The position numbers were made by a program, and so were the translations under genes. The notes below the pieces were generated by a model. That model was not told the DNA's origin. It worked only from the letters and a program-made list of their open reading frames with translations, and made no database searches. DNA of 42,283 bases from a bacterium. Its GTDB lineage: Bacteria; Myxococcota_A; UBA9160; UBA6930. How positions within the stretch are numbered: position 1 is the first letter of the stretch; each line of letters begins with the position of its first letter. Where the stretch lies: NCBI GenBank assembly GCA_024226235.1, contig JAAELW010000164.1:1-42283 (forward strand). Direction: 5' to 3'. This document shows positions 30,854 through 42,283 of this stretch, one piece after another.

Positions 30854-33433
30854 CTAGGCGGATCCGGCGTCGTCGTCCGCCAGCCGGGCCATCGAAACCA
30901 ACCCCTCGCCGCTGGCCAGATCCATCATCCGCACACCCTGAGTCGCACGGCCCATCGTCGAGATGGTCTCCACCTTGCAGCGCAGGACCTTGCCGCCGTT
31001 GGTAATGAGCATGACCTCATCGTCGTCCACGACCTGCGCGATACCCACCACCTGACCGTTCCGGCTGCTGGTACGAATCGTGATGATGCCCTGACCGCCG
31101 CGGTTCTGGATCCGGTAGTCGTCCAGGGGCGTGCGTTTGCCGTAGCCATGCTCCGTCACCGTGAGCACCGTGGCGCCTGGGGAGAGGATCTCCATGCCGA
31201 CGAGCTCATCGTTGCCAGCCAGGTTCATGCCGCGCACGCCAGCCGCGGTGCGGCCCATTGCGCGTATCTGGTCTTCGGGGAAGCGGATCGCCTTGCCCAC
31301 CTTCGAGGCCAGAATCACCTCGTTGCTACCGCTCGTGCGGCGAGCACCGATCAACTCGTCGTCATCCGACAGGTTGATGGCGATGATTCCACCGCGGCGC
31401 GGGTTCGAGTAGGCATCGACCTTGGTTTTCTTCACGACGCCCCGACGCGTGCATAGCAGCACGAAATCATCGGTGGCCTCTGCGAAGTCACGCACCGAAA
31501 GGGTCGCCTGGACCCGTTCACCGTCTTGGAGTGCCAGCAGGTTCACGAGTGCCTTTCCCCGGGCCGCTCGACCCAGTTGCGGCAGCTCCCAGACCTTCTT
31601 CCAATGCACGCGCCCACGATTCGTGAAGAACAGGATCGTCGAGTGGGTCGAGGCGATGAACAGGTTCGAGACGAAATCCTCTTCCTTCGTCTGCATGCCC
31701 TTCAGACCCTTACCGCCGCGGCGCTGCGCGCGGTATTGGGTGATCGGGTTGCGCTTCACATAGCCGCGATGGGACACGGTGACCACCATGTCTTCCTCGA
31801 CGATCAGATCCTCCGTGGAAATGCCTTCGACGGCACCGGTGATCTCGGTTCGGCGCGGATCGGCATACTTCTCACGGATCTCGTCGAGTTCCTCGAGAAT
31901 CACCTCGAGAATCATCTCATCACTGGCGAGCAGTGACTTCAGCTCGGCGATCCGTGCGCGCAGCTCCTCGAGCTCCTCGAGCACGCGCTGGCGCTCCATC
32001 GCCGTGAGTGAGCGCAGGCGCATATCGAGGATCGCCTGGGCCTGGCGTTCAGAGAGCTCGAAGCGCTCCATCAGCTGCGTGCGAGCAGTCGGTGTATCCG
32101 CTGCGGCGCGGATGATCGCGATCACCTCGTCGAGGTGATCGAGTGCAATCGCGAAGCCTTCCAAGATATGGGCGCGGGCTTCGGCCTGCGCCAGATCATA
32201 GGCGGCCCGTCGGGCCACGACCTCGCGACGGAAATCCAGGAAGTGTTGGAGGCATTCGCGAAGCGAGAGCAGCTGGGGCCGACCACCAACCAACGCGAGC
32301 ATGTTCACGCCGAAGGTCGTCTGAAGCGGTGTGAGCTTGTAGATCTGGTTGAGGATCACTTCCTCAGGCGCACCCCTGCGCAGCTCGATCACCACCCGGA
32401 TGCCTCGGCGATCGCTCTCGTCCCGCAGGTCGGAGACGCCGTCGACCTTTCCTTCGCGCACCAGGTCTGCGATGCGCTCGACCATCGAGGCCTTGTTCAC
32501 CATGTACGGGATTTCAGTGACGACGATCCGGGTGCCGCGCTTGCTCTCCTCGAATGCGGCCCGACCGCGCACTGTGATCTGGCCACGACCCGTCAGATAG
32601 GCCGATCGGATGCCCTCGGTACCGCAGATCAATGCGCCGGTCGGGAAGTCGGGTCCCGGGAGCTTCTCCAGCAGATCGTCCACGGAGCAATCCGGATTGC
32701 CCGCCAGTACCTGGATGGCGTCGATCAACTCCCCCAGGTTGTGGGGCGGAATGTTCGTGGCCATGCCGACCGCGATGCCCTGGGAACCATTCGCCAACAG
32801 GTTTGGAACGCGGGTTGGCAGCACGACCGGCTCGACCTGGTTGCCATCGAAATTCGGAGAGAAGTCGACCGTTTCCCGATCGATGTCGCGCAGCAGCTCA
32901 GTGGCGATCGGCCGCAGGCGGGCCTCGGTGTAGCGATAGGCGGCCGGCGGATCTCCATCGATCGAACCAAAGTTGCCCTGGCCATGGACCAGCGGGTATC
33001 GCAGTGACCAGTCCTGGGCCATGCGTGCCATGGCTTCGTAGATCGAGGAATCGCCGTGGGGGTGGTAGTGCTTGATCACCTCACCCACGACTCCAGCGCT
33101 CTTCTGGAAGGGCCGGTTCGGCTGCAAGCCTTCGTCGTGCATCGCGTAGAGGATCCGCCGATGCACGGGCTTGAGGCCGTCTTCGACCTTGGGCAGTGCG
33201 CGGCTCACGATCACCGACATCGAGTAGTCGAGGAACGATCCACGCACCTCGTCCTCGATGTTCACAGGCAGTGCGTCGTTGGCACCCCCGTCTCCACCAC
33301 CGCCGGTCGGTGCGCCTCCATCGTTGTCGTTGCCGTCTCCATCGTTTCCGGTGGCTTGGGCGGCCGCCTGGGGATCAGGAGTGTCGGTCTGCGACACCGG
33401 GGCCTCGGGCGCTTCCGTCGTCTCTTCGGCCAT
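30854..33433 (-). CDS. gyrA: DNA gyrase subunit A
   Basis: 859 residues. Catalytic Tyr168 ([10 protein letters not shown]) and the helix-4 quinolone region [12 protein letters not shown] (S129 and E133 correspond to E. coli S83 and D87) are intact, and the GyrA box QRRGGKG is present, which separates it from ParC. The C-terminal beta-pinwheel (about 530-850) has repeated motifs such as GVVKKTK and GYGKRT. The first 55 residues are an extra low-complexity acidic stretch ([22 protein letters not shown]) ahead of the usual start [18 protein letters not shown]. It follows gyrB by two bases, so they form an operon. Confidence 0.97.
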
Positions 33434-33435
33434 CT

Positions 33436-36174
<2,739 letters not shown>

Positions 36175-37299
36175 TTAGATGCGCATCGGCATCACGATCG
36201 CAACGCTATCCGCATCATCGGTAGGCCGGATCTCGACCGCTGTATTGCCGTCCTGAAGACCCAGTTGCACCTCTTTCGTGCCCAGAGCCCCCAACGCGTC
36301 GAGCAGGTAACGGGCGTTGAAGCCGACCGAAACCGCTTCACCGGCGTAGTCGAAATCGAGCTCCTCGGAGGCCTCGCCCAGATCCGGACTGTTCGAGGAA
36401 ATCAACAAAGTGCCGTCACTCAAATCGAGCTTGACGGCACGACTGCGTTCGACCGAAAGCAACGCAACGCGACGTAGTGCACGTGTAAAGGGTTCGGCGG
36501 AGAGCGTGAACGGGCGCTTGATGTTGTTCGGGATCACGTCCCGATAGTTCGGGAATTCCCCTTCGATGAGTCGCATGACCAACGTCACACTGCCCTTGCG
36601 TACGAGACCGCTATTGCCTTCGAAACCGAGCTCGATCTCGTCGGCATCTTCCTCGTCAACCAGCCGCTTCAATTCGGCCAGGCCTTTGCGCGGAATGATC
36701 ACGCCGCTTTCAAGCCCAGCTGCATCGCTGCCAATACCGCGATCGACGAGCGCGAGCCGATGGCCATCCGTCGCAACCATGCGGATCTTCTCTTCATCCG
36801 GAAGAACCTCGAAATACACGCCATTCAGGTTGTATCGGGTTTCATCCACCGATGCGGCGTACATCGTACGCTCGATCATCTGGCTGAGAACAGCAGCCTG
36901 GAGCTTTGCAAGCTGTTCCGGCGCGAATTCGGGAAGGTTCGGATACTCCTCTGCGTCGGTACCCGCGAGTGAGAAGCGCGATCGCTGACAACGGATTTCG
37001 AGGTAGTTGTTGTCGGTCGCGTGAAGCTGGACCTTCTCGTCGGGAAGCTCGCGGACGATGTCGTAGAATCTACGAGCGGAAACCGTCACTGCACCGGGTG
37101 TAGAAACGTCCGCGATCTGGGATCCGCGAATGCCGACTTCGAGATCGGTTGCCGCAAGCTCGAGTTGGCCGTCTGCGCCATCTCCAGATGCAGTGAGCAG
37201 CACGTTGGCCAGGATCGGCATCGAGTTGCGCTTTTCGACGATAGCCTGGAGGCGACCGAGGCCTCGTTGCAGATCACCCTTTTCGATCAAGAGCTTCAT
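36175..37299 (-). CDS. dnaN: DNA polymerase III beta subunit (sliding clamp)
   Basis: 374 residues from ATG at 37299 (MKLLIEKGDLQRGLGRLQ); the frame is open 12 codons further upstream but those residues are not conserved and a GAGGCGGG ribosome binding site precedes 37299. Three clamp folds are present, with MRLIEGEFPNYRDVIP and the C-terminal protein-binding end VAIVMPMRI. It forms the dimeric ring that tethers the replicative polymerase. It heads the leftward block dnaN, gyrB, gyrA and is divergent from rpmH. No dnaA precedes it and no recF follows it. Confidence 0.97.
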   Translation of the reverse strand: MKLLIEKGDLQRGLGRLQAIVEKRNSMPILANVLLTASGDGADGQLELAATDLEVGIRGSQIADVSTPGAVTVSARRFYDIVRELPDEKVQLHATDNNYLEIRCQRSRFSLAGTDAEEYPNLPEFAPEQLAKLQAAVLSQMIERTMYAASVDETRYNLNGVYFEVLPDEEKIRMVATDGHRLALVDRGIGSDAAGLESGVIIPRKGLAELKRLVDEEDADEIELGFEGNSGLVRKGSVTLVMRLIEGEFPNYRDVIPNNIKRPFTLSAEPFTRALRRVALLSVERSRAVKLDLSDGTLLISSNSPDLGEASEELDFDYAGEAVSVGFNARYLLDALGALGTKEVQLGLQDGNTAVEIRPTDDADSVAIVMPMRI

Positions 37300-37621
37300 T
37301 GCATCCCGCCTCTTCTCTGGTTCTTCTTCATTCAAGAAATAAAATAATGATGGAGATAAGGGCCGACATTACGACAAAGCCGGTGTAACGAGGCGTGGCG
37401 ATAGACAATTCGCTTTGTCAGCCAGCCAGTCAGCCCCGGCATACGTGTCGACTCACCCCCATGGTTGATCGGCGGGGGAATCATACCACTCTGTAGAGGC
37501 TCTCGACCGATGGAAACCGGCGACAGACGAATCCTCGGTTCCATTTGCGCTTCGATGGTCCGAGGGGTAGGATTCCGCGCTCTCTGGGCCCCGCAGGGCC
37601 TGGCCAGGAATTGCCCAGACT
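37300..37621. other. dnaN-rpmH intergenic region, possible origin-proximal promoter region
   Basis: 322 bases between divergent genes, without a protein gene. It includes an AT-rich patch (about 37325-37350, CAAGAAATAAAATAATGATG) that stands out in this GC-rich window, and a minus-strand extended -10 at 37480-37488. No TTATCCACA-type DnaA box was found, only weak matches such as TTATCTCCA (7 of 9). The layout is like other bacterial rpmH-side regions where oriC sits next to dnaA, but dnaA is not here. I cannot call it an origin. Confidence 0.5.
37480..37488 (-). promoter_or_regulatory. Extended -10 promoter element for dnaN
   Basis: Minus strand TGGTATGAT matches TGnTATAAT at all but one base of the hexamer and has the TG extension, which can act without a good -35. 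Start would be about 37474, giving a leader of about 175 bases before dnaN. No good -35 was found. Confidence 0.4.
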
Positions 37622-37771
37622 ATGAAGCGAACCTATCAGCCGAGCCGAATTCGCCGTCTTCGTACCCATGGCTTTCGTGCTCGGATGAAGACCAAGAGTG
37701 GTCGGGCGGTGATCAAGCGACGCCGGACCAAGGGCCGAAAACGGCTAGCCGTCGGCGTTTCGTCCAAGTAG
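37622..37771 (+). CDS. rpmH: Ribosomal protein L34
   Basis: 49 residues from ATG at 37622: [20 protein letters not shown], then [29 protein letters not shown]. It is an almost canonical L34, basic and free of acidic residues. The family pattern MKRTxQPSxxxRxRxHGFRxRMxTxxGRxVxxxRRxKGRxxL is met throughout. It is the first gene of the rightward block and is followed by rnpA after 41 bases, as in most bacteria. Confidence 0.97.
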
Positions 37772-37812: not shown

Positions 37813-38172
37813 ATGCCCGAACACCTCTCCATTCAAAGAGAGGGCTCCCAGCGCCTTCGGCGGGATTCCCGCCTGCGCAACCCGAAGGATTTTCGGCGTG
37901 TCCAGCGAACTGGTAGACGCCGGGTGGGACGTCATTTCGTATTGGTTCGGGGCAAGAGTCTCGAGCCTTTCGAAACACGTCTCGGGCTGGCGGTGAGCCG
38001 GAAGGTGGGTAACGCGGTGGCTCGAAATCACATCAAGAGACGGGTGCGGGATTGGTTTCGGCGAAATCGGTCTGCGCTCCCCGAGGGTGACCTGGTGGTG
38101 ATTGCTCGGTTTGGATCTGCAGAGCGGAGCGCGGAAGAGATCGCCAGTGAGCTGACGGAGTTGGCTCGATGA
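37813..38172 (+). CDS. rnpA: Ribonuclease P protein component
   Basis: 119 residues from ATG at 37813. The frame is open upstream through rpmH but there it is only a shadow. LRNPKDFRRVQRTGRRRVGRHFVLVR and the RNR-type RNA-binding motif NAVARNHIKRRVRDWFR (His in place of the usual Arg in RNR) are clear. Its cold-shock-like fold helps RNase P RNA process tRNA 5' ends. The last four bases overlap yidD (ATGA). Confidence 0.95.
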   Translation: MPEHLSIQREGSQRLRRDSRLRNPKDFRRVQRTGRRRVGRHFVLVRGKSLEPFETRLGLAVSRKVGNAVARNHIKRRVRDWFRRNRSALPEGDLVVIARFGSAERSAEEIASELTELAR

Positions 38173-38417
38173 GTAGGCTGATCTCACAGCTGCTGGTGGT
38201 CGCGGTGCGTGTCTATCAGGTTGTTCTTTCTCCGCATTTCGGCGGAGCGTGCCGCTTTTCGCCCAGTTGCTCCGAGTATGCAATCGAGGCGCTTCGCCAG
38301 CACGGGCCGTGGCGCGGCGTCGTTCTGGCGGTGAGCCGGATAGGGCGCTGCCACCCTTTCCATCCCGGCGGCATCGATCCGGTTCCCGCGGCTGGAGGGA
38401 AACGCGATGGATCGTAA
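38169..38417 (+). CDS. yidD: Membrane protein insertion efficiency factor YidD
   Basis: 82 residues. YidD family signature: VYQVVLSPHFGGACRFSPSCSEYAIEAL with two cysteines, then GRCHPFHPGGIDPVP. The N-terminal segment is amphipathic. In other bacteria it is encoded between rnpA and yidC and assists insertion of proteins by YidC. It overlaps rnpA by 4 and yidC by 11 bases, so all three are likely translated together. Confidence 0.95.
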   Translation: MSRLISQLLVVAVRVYQVVLSPHFGGACRFSPSCSEYAIEALRQHGPWRGVVLAVSRIGRCHPFHPGGIDPVPAAGGKRDGS

Positions 38418-40101
38418 TTTCCTGCTCGCAATGACCCTCTCCCTCGTCGTGGTCGTGAGTTGGACGATGTACACCGGCGAGAAGCAGCAGCGATATCTCG
38501 AGGAGAACCCGAGCGAGGCTAAAACCACCCAATCAAGTGATGAGCCCGGGTTTCCGGCAGATCAGGGCTTCGAGCCGTCTTCTCCGGCAGAGGCTGACGT
38601 CGTCACCCCTTCCAAAGCGCCAGCAGCGGTACCGAAGCCGGCAGAGGTTGCGGAGGAGCGGACGACGATCAAGACCGCGTTGTACGAAGCGGAGCTCTCG
38701 ACCCGTGGGGGCGCGCTACTTCGGTGGGACCTCGAGAAATACGATGATCCATCGCAGGATGGAGCCCCGAAGGTCGAGCTGACGACTCTTGTCGATGATG
38801 AGCGTGCATTGACGACGCCTCTCGAAGGGCTCGGTTATGGCGATCTCAGTACTGCGTCGTATCGGATGGAAGAGTCCGATGCATTGACGCGGAGTTTCGT
38901 GCTCGAGCACGAAGGCGTCTCGGTTCGCAAGACATACACCTTCTCCGAAGACGACTATGCGGTGCGCTTGCGGATCGCAGTCGAGAATGGTTCGGATCGG
39001 CATCTGCGCCCTGAGTTCGCGATTCGCTGGCCGATGCGCGCACGTGACAGTGCCGATTTCGCGGACTACTCGGTTGCCGTTCGGAGTGAAACCGATGTCG
39101 AATTGCTTCCGATCACGACGACTCGATCGTTCCTGGGAATGGGTGGAGGCGGGATCGAGGGCCGGCATAACTACACCAATGTGGATTGGATCGCGGCCGA
39201 CACCACCTACTTCCTGGCTGCGGTGGCAACCGAAGTACCGGAGCGAGCTTCCGCATCGGTAGTCCCGATCTCGGAAGGCACCGTGCATACGGAGTTGTCG
39301 ATCGAACAGATGGACCTTCCGCCGGGCCAGCACTTCGACACCGAGTATCACATCTATCTTGGGCCGAAAGAGACAGCGCGGCTCGATGCATTTGGTGCCC
39401 ATCTCGATGAAGCCATCCAGAAGGGCTGGTTTCCGTCGCTGACTCGGTTCTTTGGCTGGCTACTCGACGCAGCGTATTCGGTGATTCCGAACTACGGGGT
39501 GTCCATCATCCTGATCACGATCATGGTGCGGTTGTTGATGGCGCCGCTGATGGCCCGACAGATGAAATCGATGAAGCGCATGAGCGACATCGCGCCGATG
39601 ATGAAAGAGATCCAGGAGAAGTACAAAGAAGATCGAGAGCGTCAGAGCCAGGAGATGATGGCGCTTTACAAGCGCGAGGGTGTCAGCCCCTTCTCGATGC
39701 TTTCGGGTTGCTTTCCGATGCTACTGCAGTTTCCGGTGTTCATCGGTTTCTACTTTGCGCTTCAGAGTGCGATTGCGCTGCGCCAACAGCCTTTCGTTGG
39801 CTGGATTACTGATCTTTCGCAACCGGAAGCGCTGTTCGTTCTGCCCGGTGTCGACATACCCGTGCGTGTGATTCCGATCCTGATGGGCGGCGCAATGTTC
39901 CTGCAGCAGAAGCTCACACCGTCGGGCTCGATGGATCCGGCGCAGCAACGAATGATGATGACCATCATGCCCGTGATGTTCACGGTGCTGTTCTATCAGT
40001 TTGCTTCGGGCCTGGTGTTGTACTGGTTCGTCAGCACATTGATCGGCATTGGTCAGCAAGTGGTGACGAATCGCGACAAGAAGCCTGTCGCTGAGAAATG
40101 A
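38407..40101 (+). CDS. yidC: Membrane protein insertase YidC
   Basis: 564 residues. Helix 1 at about 5-22, then a Pro/Ala/Glu-rich linker (about 40-85), the periplasmic beta-supersandwich P1 domain (about 85-320), and the conserved five-helix core from about 335. The core has VSIILITIMVRLLMAPLMARQMKSM with the groove arginine, a cytoplasmic coiled hairpin, and the C-terminal helices. It inserts and folds inner-membrane proteins, alone or with SecYEG, and matches the long Gram-negative type rather than short Gram-positive YidC. Confidence 0.96.
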   Translation: MDRNFLLAMTLSLVVVVSWTMYTGEKQQRYLEENPSEAKTTQSSDEPGFPADQGFEPSSPAEADVVTPSKAPAAVPKPAEVAEERTTIKTALYEAELSTRGGALLRWDLEKYDDPSQDGAPKVELTTLVDDERALTTPLEGLGYGDLSTASYRMEESDALTRSFVLEHEGVSVRKTYTFSEDDYAVRLRIAVENGSDRHLRPEFAIRWPMRARDSADFADYSVAVRSETDVELLPITTTRSFLGMGGGGIEGRHNYTNVDWIAADTTYFLAAVATEVPERASASVVPISEGTVHTELSIEQMDLPPGQHFDTEYHIYLGPKETARLDAFGAHLDEAIQKGWFPSLTRFFGWLLDAAYSVIPNYGVSIILITIMVRLLMAPLMARQMKSMKRMSDIAPMMKEIQEKYKEDRERQSQEMMALYKREGVSPFSMLSGCFPMLLQFPVFIGFYFALQSAIALRQQPFVGWITDLSQPEALFVLPGVDIPVRVIPILMGGAMFLQQKLTPSGSMDPAQQRMMMTIMPVMFTVLFYQFASGLVLYWFVSTLIGIGQQVVTNRDKKPVAEK

Positions 40102-41094: not shown

Positions 41095-41110
41095 TGTTCC
41101 ACGGGGAACA
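41095..41110. promoter_or_regulatory. parS-like ParB-binding site 1
   Basis: TGTTCCACGGGGAACA differs by one base (G for T at position 10) from the palindromic parS consensus TGTTCCACGTGGAACA. It lies between jag and rsmG, about 0.9 kb before parA. Confidence 0.75.
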
Positions 41111-41137
41111 CATGCGCCGGACGTGTCCGGCAGCGTG

Positions 41138-41153
41138 TGTTCCACCGGGAGCG
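41138..41153. promoter_or_regulatory. Weaker parS-like site 2, at the rsmG start
   Basis: TGTTCCACCGGGAGCG matches the parS consensus at 12 of 16 positions. It falls between two possible rsmG starts (GTG at 41123 and 41162), so if functional it argues for the later start. Confidence 0.4.
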
Positions 41154-41161
41154 CCCCGCCC

Positions 41162-41770
41162 GTGACAATCGACGTGCACAGCGCACTGGGCGCGCTGGCA
41201 TCGGGTGTCGCACTGACTGCCCCCCAGCTCGAATCGCTCGGCCGCTATTCCACGAGCCTCCACAGTTGGAATCAGCGGATTCGCCTGACTGGCGCCAGCT
41301 CCGTGGAGGCCATCCTGGGCGAGCACGTGGCCGACGCGCTGCCACTGCTCCGTCATCTTCCCGATGGCCCATTTCGGCTGCTCGACGTCGGCAGCGGCGC
41401 CGGTTTCCCGGCGATCGTGCTCGCCCTGCTCCGGCCGGATGCGCAGGTGACAATGGTCGAGCCGATTGGAAAGAAGCACGCGTTCCTGCGTGCGATGATC
41501 CGCGAGCTTCCGCTGCCGAATGCCGAGGCACTTCAAGCCCGAATCGAGCAATTGTCGGCCGATGACGACTTCGACGTGGCAGTTTCCCGCGCCACCTGGC
41601 CCATTGCTGACTGGTTGATCCGAGCCCGCCCAGGCCTCGTCCCCGGCCGCCGGATCCTCGGCCAGATTGGTGCAGACGTGAGCACCCTCCCGGGAGATGC
41701 AGAGGTCTACACCTACGAGCTCGCCGGGAGCTGCCGCCACGTGGTCAGGCTCGAGACTGCTCCGAACTAG
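41162..41770 (+). CDS. rsmG: 16S rRNA (guanine527-N7)-methyltransferase G
   Basis: 202 residues from GTG at 41162; GTG at 41123 would add 13 residues and overlap a parS-like site. The SAM-binding motif LDVGSGAGFPAIVLALLRPD, the preceding LTGASSVEAILGEHVADAL and the later VSRATWPIADWL are typical of RsmG (GidB). It methylates G527 of 16S rRNA. It is commonly found just before parA and parB, as here, and usually after mnmE/mnmG, neither of which is seen. Confidence 0.94.
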   Translation: MTIDVHSALGALASGVALTAPQLESLGRYSTSLHSWNQRIRLTGASSVEAILGEHVADALPLLRHLPDGPFRLLDVGSGAGFPAIVLALLRPDAQVTMVEPIGKKHAFLRAMIRELPLPNAEALQARIEQLSADDDFDVAVSRATWPIADWLIRARPGLVPGRRILGQIGADVSTLPGDAEVYTYELAGSCRHVVRLETAPN

Positions 41771-41796: not shown

Positions 41797-41812
41797 TGTT
41801 CCACGGGGAACA
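41797..41812. promoter_or_regulatory. parS-like site 3
   Basis: TGTTCCACGGGGAACA, identical to the site at 41095-41110, 27 bases after the rsmG stop in the gap before parA. Confidence 0.75.
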
Positions 41813-41947: not shown

Positions 41948-41963
41948 CGTTCCCCGTGGAACA
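41948..41963. promoter_or_regulatory. parS-like site 4 (inverted)
   Basis: CGTTCCCCGTGGAACA is the reverse complement of TGTTCCACGGGGAACG, i.e. the same asymmetric variant in the other orientation, 20 bases before the parA start. Occupation by ParB could affect parA expression. Confidence 0.7.
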
Positions 41964-41983: not shown

Positions 41984-42283
41984 GTGATAGAACCCCTAGG
42001 CGGGCACCCTTGCCCAGACCGAGAGGCCGCCCCCATTCAGCCCCCTCCCGTCCAGACCAGCGCTCGAGTCATCGCAGTCGTCAACCAGAAGGGGGGCGTC
42101 GGCAAGACCACGACCGCGGTCAACCTGGCTGCCTCGATAGCCGCGGCCGAGCGGCCGGTCCTGCTCGTCGACCTGGACCCCCAGGCCAACGCCAGCAGTG
42201 CCTACGGCATCGCATCCCCTGAGCACCAGCTCTACGACGTGCTATCGGGCAAGAGCACACTTCCCGAGGTCGCGGTCCCGACC
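41984..42283 (+). CDS. parA: Chromosome partitioning ATPase ParA (5' part, runs off the window)
   Basis: The first 100 codons from GTG at 41984, with AAAGGA just before it. After a short proline-rich lead ([11 protein letters not shown]) comes [20 protein letters not shown], the deviant Walker A of ParA/Soj, then [17 protein letters not shown]. It would be followed by the rest of the ATPase and parB. It moves or positions ParB-parS complexes to segregate replicated origins. The alternative, a plasmid-type ParA, is made unlikely by the rsmG context and parS-like sites. Confidence 0.95.

Follow-up and report, generated by a model that had tools for sequence, protein, structure and literature searches.

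Few protein-site pairs in bacteria are as strongly conserved as DnaA and its box, and origins of replication are commonly located through clusters of TTATCCACA and through a dnaA gene adjoining dnaN. Both cues fail in the order considered here, which raises the question of where replication starts in these organisms, which protein starts it, and what marks the site. The stretch of DNA analysed (the window) is a whole contig of 42,283 bp, C164, belonging to a 5.07-Mb genome in 564 contigs. It was examined alongside a relatives set of 79 genomes (its own and 78 others) and a draw of 57 genomes from the phylum, nearly all of them fragmented assemblies.

The original prediction, that dnaN faces rpmH at a distance of 322 bp with no dnaA between them, is correct. 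The dnaN gene (36175–37299, minus strand; TIGR00663, 328.6 bits) has its ATG at 37299, rpmH (37622–37771, plus strand; TIGR01030, 79.4 bits) begins at 37622, and the intergenic gap between them (37300–37621) has a GC content of 56%. As had also been noted, recF is missing between dnaN and gyrB: dnaN is followed on the minus strand by gyrB (33436–35880, start approximate; PRK14939.1, 1132 bits) and then gyrA (30854–33433; PRK05560.1, 1214 bits). The genes on the rpmH side are, in order, rnpA (37813–38172, plus strand; TIGR00188, 72 bits), yidC (38407–40101, plus strand; TIGR03592 and TIGR03593, both above cut-off), a Jag/EloR-like gene, rsmG (41123–41770, plus strand; TIGR00138, 109.6 bits) and a parA-like gene (41984–42283, plus strand). 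The last has lost its 3' end at the contig edge; its 100 remaining residues find their best match in NF041546, at 64.2 bits against a cut-off of 180. The divergent dnaN-rpmH pair is present in 60 of 61 stretches (the window and 60 from relatives), with a spacing of 279 to 904 bp. The single exception is a 3-kb contig of genome G070, on which a canonical dnaA adjoins a second dnaN; it has no dnaN-rpmH pair (locus L114) and is hence outside the set of 60 gaps discussed below.

The proposed search for dnaA and recF elsewhere in the genome located the former and gave no match above cut-off for the latter. The only Bac_DnaA (PF00308) match in the genome lies on contig C62, where the dnaA gene (L004, 5516–7129) is flanked by a LON-substrate-binding-domain gene and radical-SAM genes. 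DnaA_N, Bac_DnaA and Bac_DnaA_C are all above cut-off in its product, so that domains I, III (AAA+) and IV (helix-turn-helix) of the DnaA family are present; its relatives among named records are the “Deltaproteobacteria bacterium” MAGs Meg19_02_Bin_150 and ARS66. A DnaA_C match on contig C418 (L217, 1766–2551, minus strand; E 2.4e-4, below cut-off) was considered as a second DnaA and rejected; the ORF, of 261 amino acids, resembles in its translation a REP-associated transposase that ends in a DnaA_C-like helix-turn-helix. For recF, all candidates in the window's own genome were scored and none was above cut-off, and a match above cut-off was found in 0 of the 79 genomes of the relatives set, in most of which part of the candidates was scored. 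Within the phylum draw, 45 of the 57 genomes have recF, divided as 0 of 11 members of the order and 45 of 46 others, G079 being the exception. recF is missing order-wide.

Could a canonical dnaA be present and have been missed, its absence being an artefact of incomplete MAGs? The genome is an estimated 90% complete, the window's contig ends nearby, such that a dnaA could fall just past the edge, and the G070 contig does carry a canonical dnaA beside a second dnaN. We nevertheless regard this explanation as highly improbable, given that dnaN directly faces rpmH in 60 stretches, with nothing absent between them, and that a DnaA C-domain match (E 0.001) was found in 75 of the 79 genomes (above cut-off in 74; dnaN and rpmH matches were found in 71 and 70, respectively), with dnaA and dnaN side by side only in G070 when coordinates were compared by eye. 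The G070 contig (C185, loci L114 and L006) is probably contamination, this genome having an estimated contamination of 6%. Where the two genes share a contig they are about 57 to 122 kb apart (G016, G044, G048, G064, G069 and G077), and in G014, a single contig of 3.67 Mb, the distance is about 1.8 Mb.

With dnaA so far from dnaN, the position of the origin was sought in strand skew, measured as third-codon GC skew taken per gene strand and then averaged, which cancels gene direction. On contig C98 of G048, all 11 segments to the left of the gap are negative and all nine to the right positive; the sign changes somewhere from 280.0 to 286.0 kb, an interval that includes the gap (285.2–285.8 kb), and dnaA, at 197 kb, is surrounded by segments that are all negative. 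Contig C9 of G077, which carries the gap in reverse orientation, has consistent signs in 4/4 and 6/6 segments, dnaA lying 80 kb off in the positive part, and contig C4 of G064 has signs of 5/5 and 5/5 around the gap, although the values are small. These three clean cases represent one genus, g34, of family f4. On contig C24 of G013, from the window's own family, there is no clean G-C switch, and a faint signal is seen in third-codon T-A skew: to the left of 260 kb, 12 of 13 segments have negative values, and the six beyond that point are close to zero or positive. The switch is not seen in G014, where 20 sampled segments gave a weak skew with a cumulative minimum at about 1.9 Mb, the gap lying at 0.26 Mb and dnaA at 2.07 Mb; the minimum points away from the gap and nearer to dnaA, and counts against an origin at the gap. 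A look at GC skew around the region had been suggested at the outset, and a sign switch at 37.3–37.6 kb together with DnaA binding there had been named as the outcome that would tell against the original prediction. The skew half of this was found in the three g34 relatives; the window itself gave only a cumulative GC skew minimum at 36,880, which is inside dnaN and coincides with a change of gene direction.

The partition sites bear on the same question. The palindrome GTTCCMCGKGGAAC, which we take to be parS, occurs exactly three times in the window's genome, and all three copies are in the window, at distances of 3.5 to 4.3 kb from the gap: GTTCCACGGGGAAC at 41096–41109 and again at 41798–41811, and GTTCCCCGTGGAAC at 41949–41962. 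It is present in 72 of the 79 genomes. Locations were listed for 32 genomes; in 26 of these it shares a contig with dnaN or rpmH, in some cases 3 to 5 kb away from the gap. Six remain: three without a dnaN or rpmH match, and three with the palindrome on another contig. The only parS-like site of G014, at 259 kb, is beside the gap. In the window the cluster lies close to the proposed oriC and to the parA-like gene, as expected of a ParABS partition region, and ParB is predicted to bind there.

The original prediction had offered two explanations for what it saw: either dnaA and oriC had moved away together, or the origin in this lineage is marked differently. dnaA is indeed elsewhere. That oriC moved with it, to a new locus (here on contig C62) and leaving the dnaN-rpmH region as a relic, is unsupported because skew switches at the gap in three relatives and three parS-like sites lie beside it. 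The G014 minimum, nearer to dnaA than to dnaN, favors such a move, but it comes from a weak and sampled skew and is opposed by the parS-like site of the same genome. In G048, G064 and G077, moreover, dnaA sits within a stretch of uniform sign, 80–122 kb from the switch, and no near-canonical boxes are found in the 16 kb around the window's own dnaA. We give relocation of the origin a slim chance of being right.

If the origin is at the gap, ordinary DnaA boxes do not seem to mark it. The absence of clear boxes from the gap, as first reported, extends to the whole window: 9-mers within one mismatch of TTATCCACA occur neither in its 42,283 bases nor in the 16 kb around the genome's own dnaA, and they were found, on both strands, in 0 of 60 gaps over the 140 bases next to dnaN. 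The window's gap has one two-mismatch 9-mer, TTATCTCCA at 37351–37359 on the minus strand, within the trinucleotide run described below. 9-mers with up to two mismatches that read toward dnaN are about as common as expected, occurring in 13 of the 60 gaps (permutations, 10.2); weak canonical sites may yet be present in the gaps. A single window without a TTATCCACA-like box is weak evidence, telling only when many genomes are set against outgroups. Near-canonical boxes number 49 against 9.4 expected at 30 outgroup dnaA loci (the best-scoring of the phylum draw, a choice that leans toward canonical DnaAs), as compared with 42 against 58.2 expected at 60 dnaN-rpmH loci of the order and 5 against 13.6 expected at 41 dnaA loci of the order, three genomes being counted twice in the last.

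What the gaps do share emerged from a de novo motif search, undertaken because a strict single regular expression for a box plus trios matched only 14 of 60 gaps. (Dinucleotide-preserving shuffles were used for the regular-expression test, and simple permutations for the counts of motif, hexamer, NAN run, upstream box, near-canonical box, TACCA and TTGACA.) The motif GTTTTGTCGG was found in 56 of 60 gaps within the 140 bases next to dnaN, read toward dnaN and at a tightly constrained distance, the start codon lying a median 75 bp away. Its log-likelihood ratio is 226.5, against 33.5–35.7 in three permuted sets that were searched from fewer starting points. A model trained without the window's own family, f1, placed the window's site, CTTTGTCGT at 37371–37379 on the minus strand (proposed DnaA box 1), at the top of 287 candidates drawn from 63 kb of its own genome. 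On the long contigs of relatives, the gap site ranks 1 (G064), 2 (G077), 6 (G048), 8 (G014) and 21 (G013) by a combined box and trio score, in which the weight of the trio term was chosen by hand and one competing site enters twice because two G048 stretches overlap. Ranked by the box model only, it stands at 4, 61, 11, 191 and 14, respectively; the box is therefore insufficient on its own to pick out the gap across a genome.

Next to the box, on the dnaN side, lie the other elements of a putative unwinding module. A proposed tandem box 2, ATGTCGG (37363–37369, minus strand), a feature seen by eye in the gaps, adjoins a run of NAN trinucleotides on the plus strand (37334–37360), which reads AAG-AAA-TAA-AAT-AAT-GAT and, after one break, GAT-AAG. 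We propose that these are DnaA-trios; the six consecutive triplets end 11 bp before the box. NAN runs of at least six on the dnaN side of the box occur in 15 of 55 gaps, five of the 60 with a weak box being omitted, against 1.5 in permutations (maximum 5); the run is short in G002, G007, G010, G011, G013 and G018. The AT-rich patch of the original prediction was found as well, with 65% AT over the 60 bases from 37311 (37311–37370), and is the proposed unwinding region. Farther from dnaN is an inverted box-like element, CTTTGTCAG (37413–37421, plus strand), a proposed counterpart of the box. In 33 of 60 gaps its hexamer occurs in this orientation at 85–175 bases from dnaN (opposite orientation, 11; shuffles, 4.0, maximum 12).

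This arrangement has a close counterpart in Bacillus subtilis, where the basal unwinding system (BUS) of oriC consists of tandem boxes, a short spacer, 3'-NAN-5' trinucleotides and AT-rich DNA (PMC8287927, PMC10316083). To count as a BUS, a site should have a box with three or more consecutive NAN trinucleotides on one strand no more than 16 bp away (PMC8287927), the box being within two mismatches of TTATCCACA or a known species-specific one. Box, spacer, NAN trinucleotides and AT-rich DNA follow in the same order in the window, which has at least three NAN trinucleotides within 16 bp if the lineage's own proposed box is used. The two differ in that TTTTGTC[G/C]G is 5 or 6 mismatches from TTATCCACA (registers compared by hand), and in that the window has no adjoining dnaA and its proposed initiator is a distant paralog. 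A species-specific box in the window, and DnaA-dependent strand separation there, are put forward as proposals. Two other origins resemble the window in part. That of Thermotoga maritima is described as having a non-canonical box, ACCTACCAC, with TAG repeats (PMC10316083); the boxes of both are non-canonical, but the sequences differ, the lineage is distant, and the account consulted mentions no paralog swap. DnaA is reported to bind the oriC of Synechococcus elongatus, which is located close to dnaN where GC skew shifts (PMC7198777). Its location resembles that proposed for the oriC in the window; the account consulted describes for it neither initiator replacement nor a box sequence.

The same elements might be read otherwise. 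If the gap were merely a divergent promoter, the motif and trinucleotides would serve dnaN as its leader or as the site of a regulator, with the origin placed within some kilobases, for example near parAB. The gaps do contain promoter-like sequences: 33 of 60 gaps have a TTGACA directed toward rpmH (shuffles, 4.2), and TACCA, extended -10-like toward dnaN, is present in 40 of 60 (13 in the opposite orientation) against 15.2 in shuffles (maximum 25), represented in the window by TGGTATGAT (37480–37488, minus strand), a possible dnaN promoter. The constant distance of GTTTTGTCGG from dnaN is also what a regulator site might display, the skew switch in G048 is resolved to 6 kb only, and the regions upstream of dnaA show no such box. 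A scan of the gap region for sigma-70 consensus and terminators gave no match. Set against a promoter and nothing more are the agreement of motif, NAN run and AT patch with the published unwinding module in order and spacing, the occurrence, judged by eye, of a similar box-trio layout in the dnaA-dnaN spacer of two genomes from another order (below), and the absence of any Rfam family from the gap at E up to 1. On balance, this reading seems to us unlikely, though it retains a modest share of the probability. An RNA family at the gap was rejected as a candidate, the sole weak hit lying at 42118 and below the gathering score. Autoregulation of dnaA through the proposed box was likewise tried and rejected: the shuffle fraction was at least 0.1 in all 13 regions parsed upstream of the order's dnaA genes, from 15 loci, and because the box is not enriched there, the link between DnaA and the box rests on correlation.

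Changes in DnaA itself may explain why the box differs. Base-specific contacts are made in E. coli DnaA by residues 399, 423, 432–435 and 438–439 (PMC5043019). In the window's own DnaA the contact motif has changed from RDHTTV to RDLPSV; the protein reads RDLPSVKNA in place of the canonical [R/K]DH[T/S]TV of domain IV, which is found in all 30 of the outgroup DnaAs fetched. All 41 genomes of the order that were read have A or S at residue 436, where the 30 outgroup loci, the best-scoring of the draw, all have T; the same 41 genomes have P at 435 in 35 cases and N at 439 in 38, with L at 434 in the four genomes read from the window's own genus (RDLPSVKNA or RDLPAVKNA). The pattern was parsed in 44 of 46 loci of the order (41 genomes, five twice) and 14 of the 30 outgroup loci, the rest being read by eye, and L006 of G070 was excluded from the order's counts. 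The turn before the recognition helix is one residue shorter in the order, as it is in one DnaA copy of G079 (G079B) and in f12A and f12B of family f12. A comparable state is found in DnaA chain 2z4r, presumably that of T. maritima, in which RSHPVV aligns with RDLPSV; both have P at 435 and the shorter turn. The second explanation of the original prediction, an origin that is marked differently, fits because the conserved boxes are not TTATCCACA and the only DnaA found has changed base-contact residues.

How a distant dnaA could have come to serve an origin beside dnaN may be reflected in family f12, which belongs to another order of the same class. Both genomes drawn from it, G149 and G161, encode two DnaAs, one between rpmH and dnaN (in the order rpmH, dnaA, dnaN, with dnaA read toward dnaN) and the other elsewhere. 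Just upstream of dnaN both have a CTNCTNCT run and, by eye, a box-like TTTTCC in the dnaA-dnaN spacer, a layout that appears similar to that of the gap in the window's order. Genomes such as those of chlamydiae reportedly have “two copies of dnaA” (PMC2878342), and two DnaA paralogs per genome are what the f12 genomes have as well; judged from search listings, we found no report of a two-dnaA genome in which one copy replaced the other at a fixed origin.

In a tree of 56 chosen DnaA sequences (26 from the 46 loci of the order, 23 from the 30 outgroup loci and seven others), the DnaA of the order groups with the distant f12 copy with support of 100/99, and then with the distant copy of G079 (100/98). 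The dnaN-adjacent f12 copies fall outside this group on long branches, and forcing them together with the order is disfavored (AU p 0.026), with a certainty that the long branches lessen. The tree thus suggests that dnaA did not simply move and that a different paralog may be what was left. The simplest account of gene order and tree together would be loss of a dnaN-adjacent dnaA, with the origin left upstream of dnaN. An alternative is that another dnaA was inserted later beside dnaN in f12 and G079, the order having lost nothing. By the tree, either copy may be the older resident, because the next branch toward the clade of the order is L192 of G080, a dnaA beside dnaN.

The dnaN-adjacent DnaAs of f12 (L213, 10655–11971, plus strand; L211, 5245–6702, minus strand) are very divergent, sit on a long branch and have an HHTTALH helix. 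No DnaA_N is listed in either by a Pfam scan (E 0.001), and this, with their divergence, suggests a relaxed or changed function at the origin. With a fast-evolving copy beside dnaN and a distant copy carrying a half-changed RDHTSV, the two genomes look like an intermediate state in which both initiators are retained.

Returning to the window, we think it fairly probable that its gap is an oriC that works by box-plus-DnaA-trio, with a substituted initiator and changed boxes. The DnaA encoded on C62 would bind tandem boxes, TTTTGTC[G/C]G, about 75 bp upstream of dnaN, binding of the gap by the lineage's DnaA being expected to depend on TTTTGTCGG. It would then load onto the neighboring NAN trinucleotides of one strand and open the AT-rich stretch in the direction of dnaN, and replication in the window's own organism would begin there. 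The broader history, in which a paralogous DnaA replaced the ancestral one at an unmoved origin throughout the order, recognition helix and boxes changing together, we rate at about even. The ancestor would have had rpmH-dnaA-dnaN, an unwinding module directly upstream of dnaN and a second DnaA elsewhere; in the window's order the dnaN-adjacent dnaA would have been lost, leaving dnaN facing rpmH, after which the distant paralog would have become the sole initiator with an altered helix and altered boxes. Judged from search listings, no earlier report of such a replacement was found in the open-licence literature. If true, this would be a natural experiment in which an essential initiator was exchanged, and its binding code altered, at an origin that stayed put, with possible two-DnaA intermediates in another order of the class; it would also supply paired changes in helix and box that can be tested.

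Two further observations concern the wider phylum. Loss of recF may track the presence of a second DnaA: the gene is absent across the order, and it has no match above cut-off in G079, which has two DnaAs; in both f12 genomes gyrB follows dnaN directly, with no recF between. A wide separation of dnaA and dnaN also occurs in families f16 and f18 (for example, about 93 kb in G147 and about 110 kb in G088), and the DnaAs of these cases read KDHTTV.
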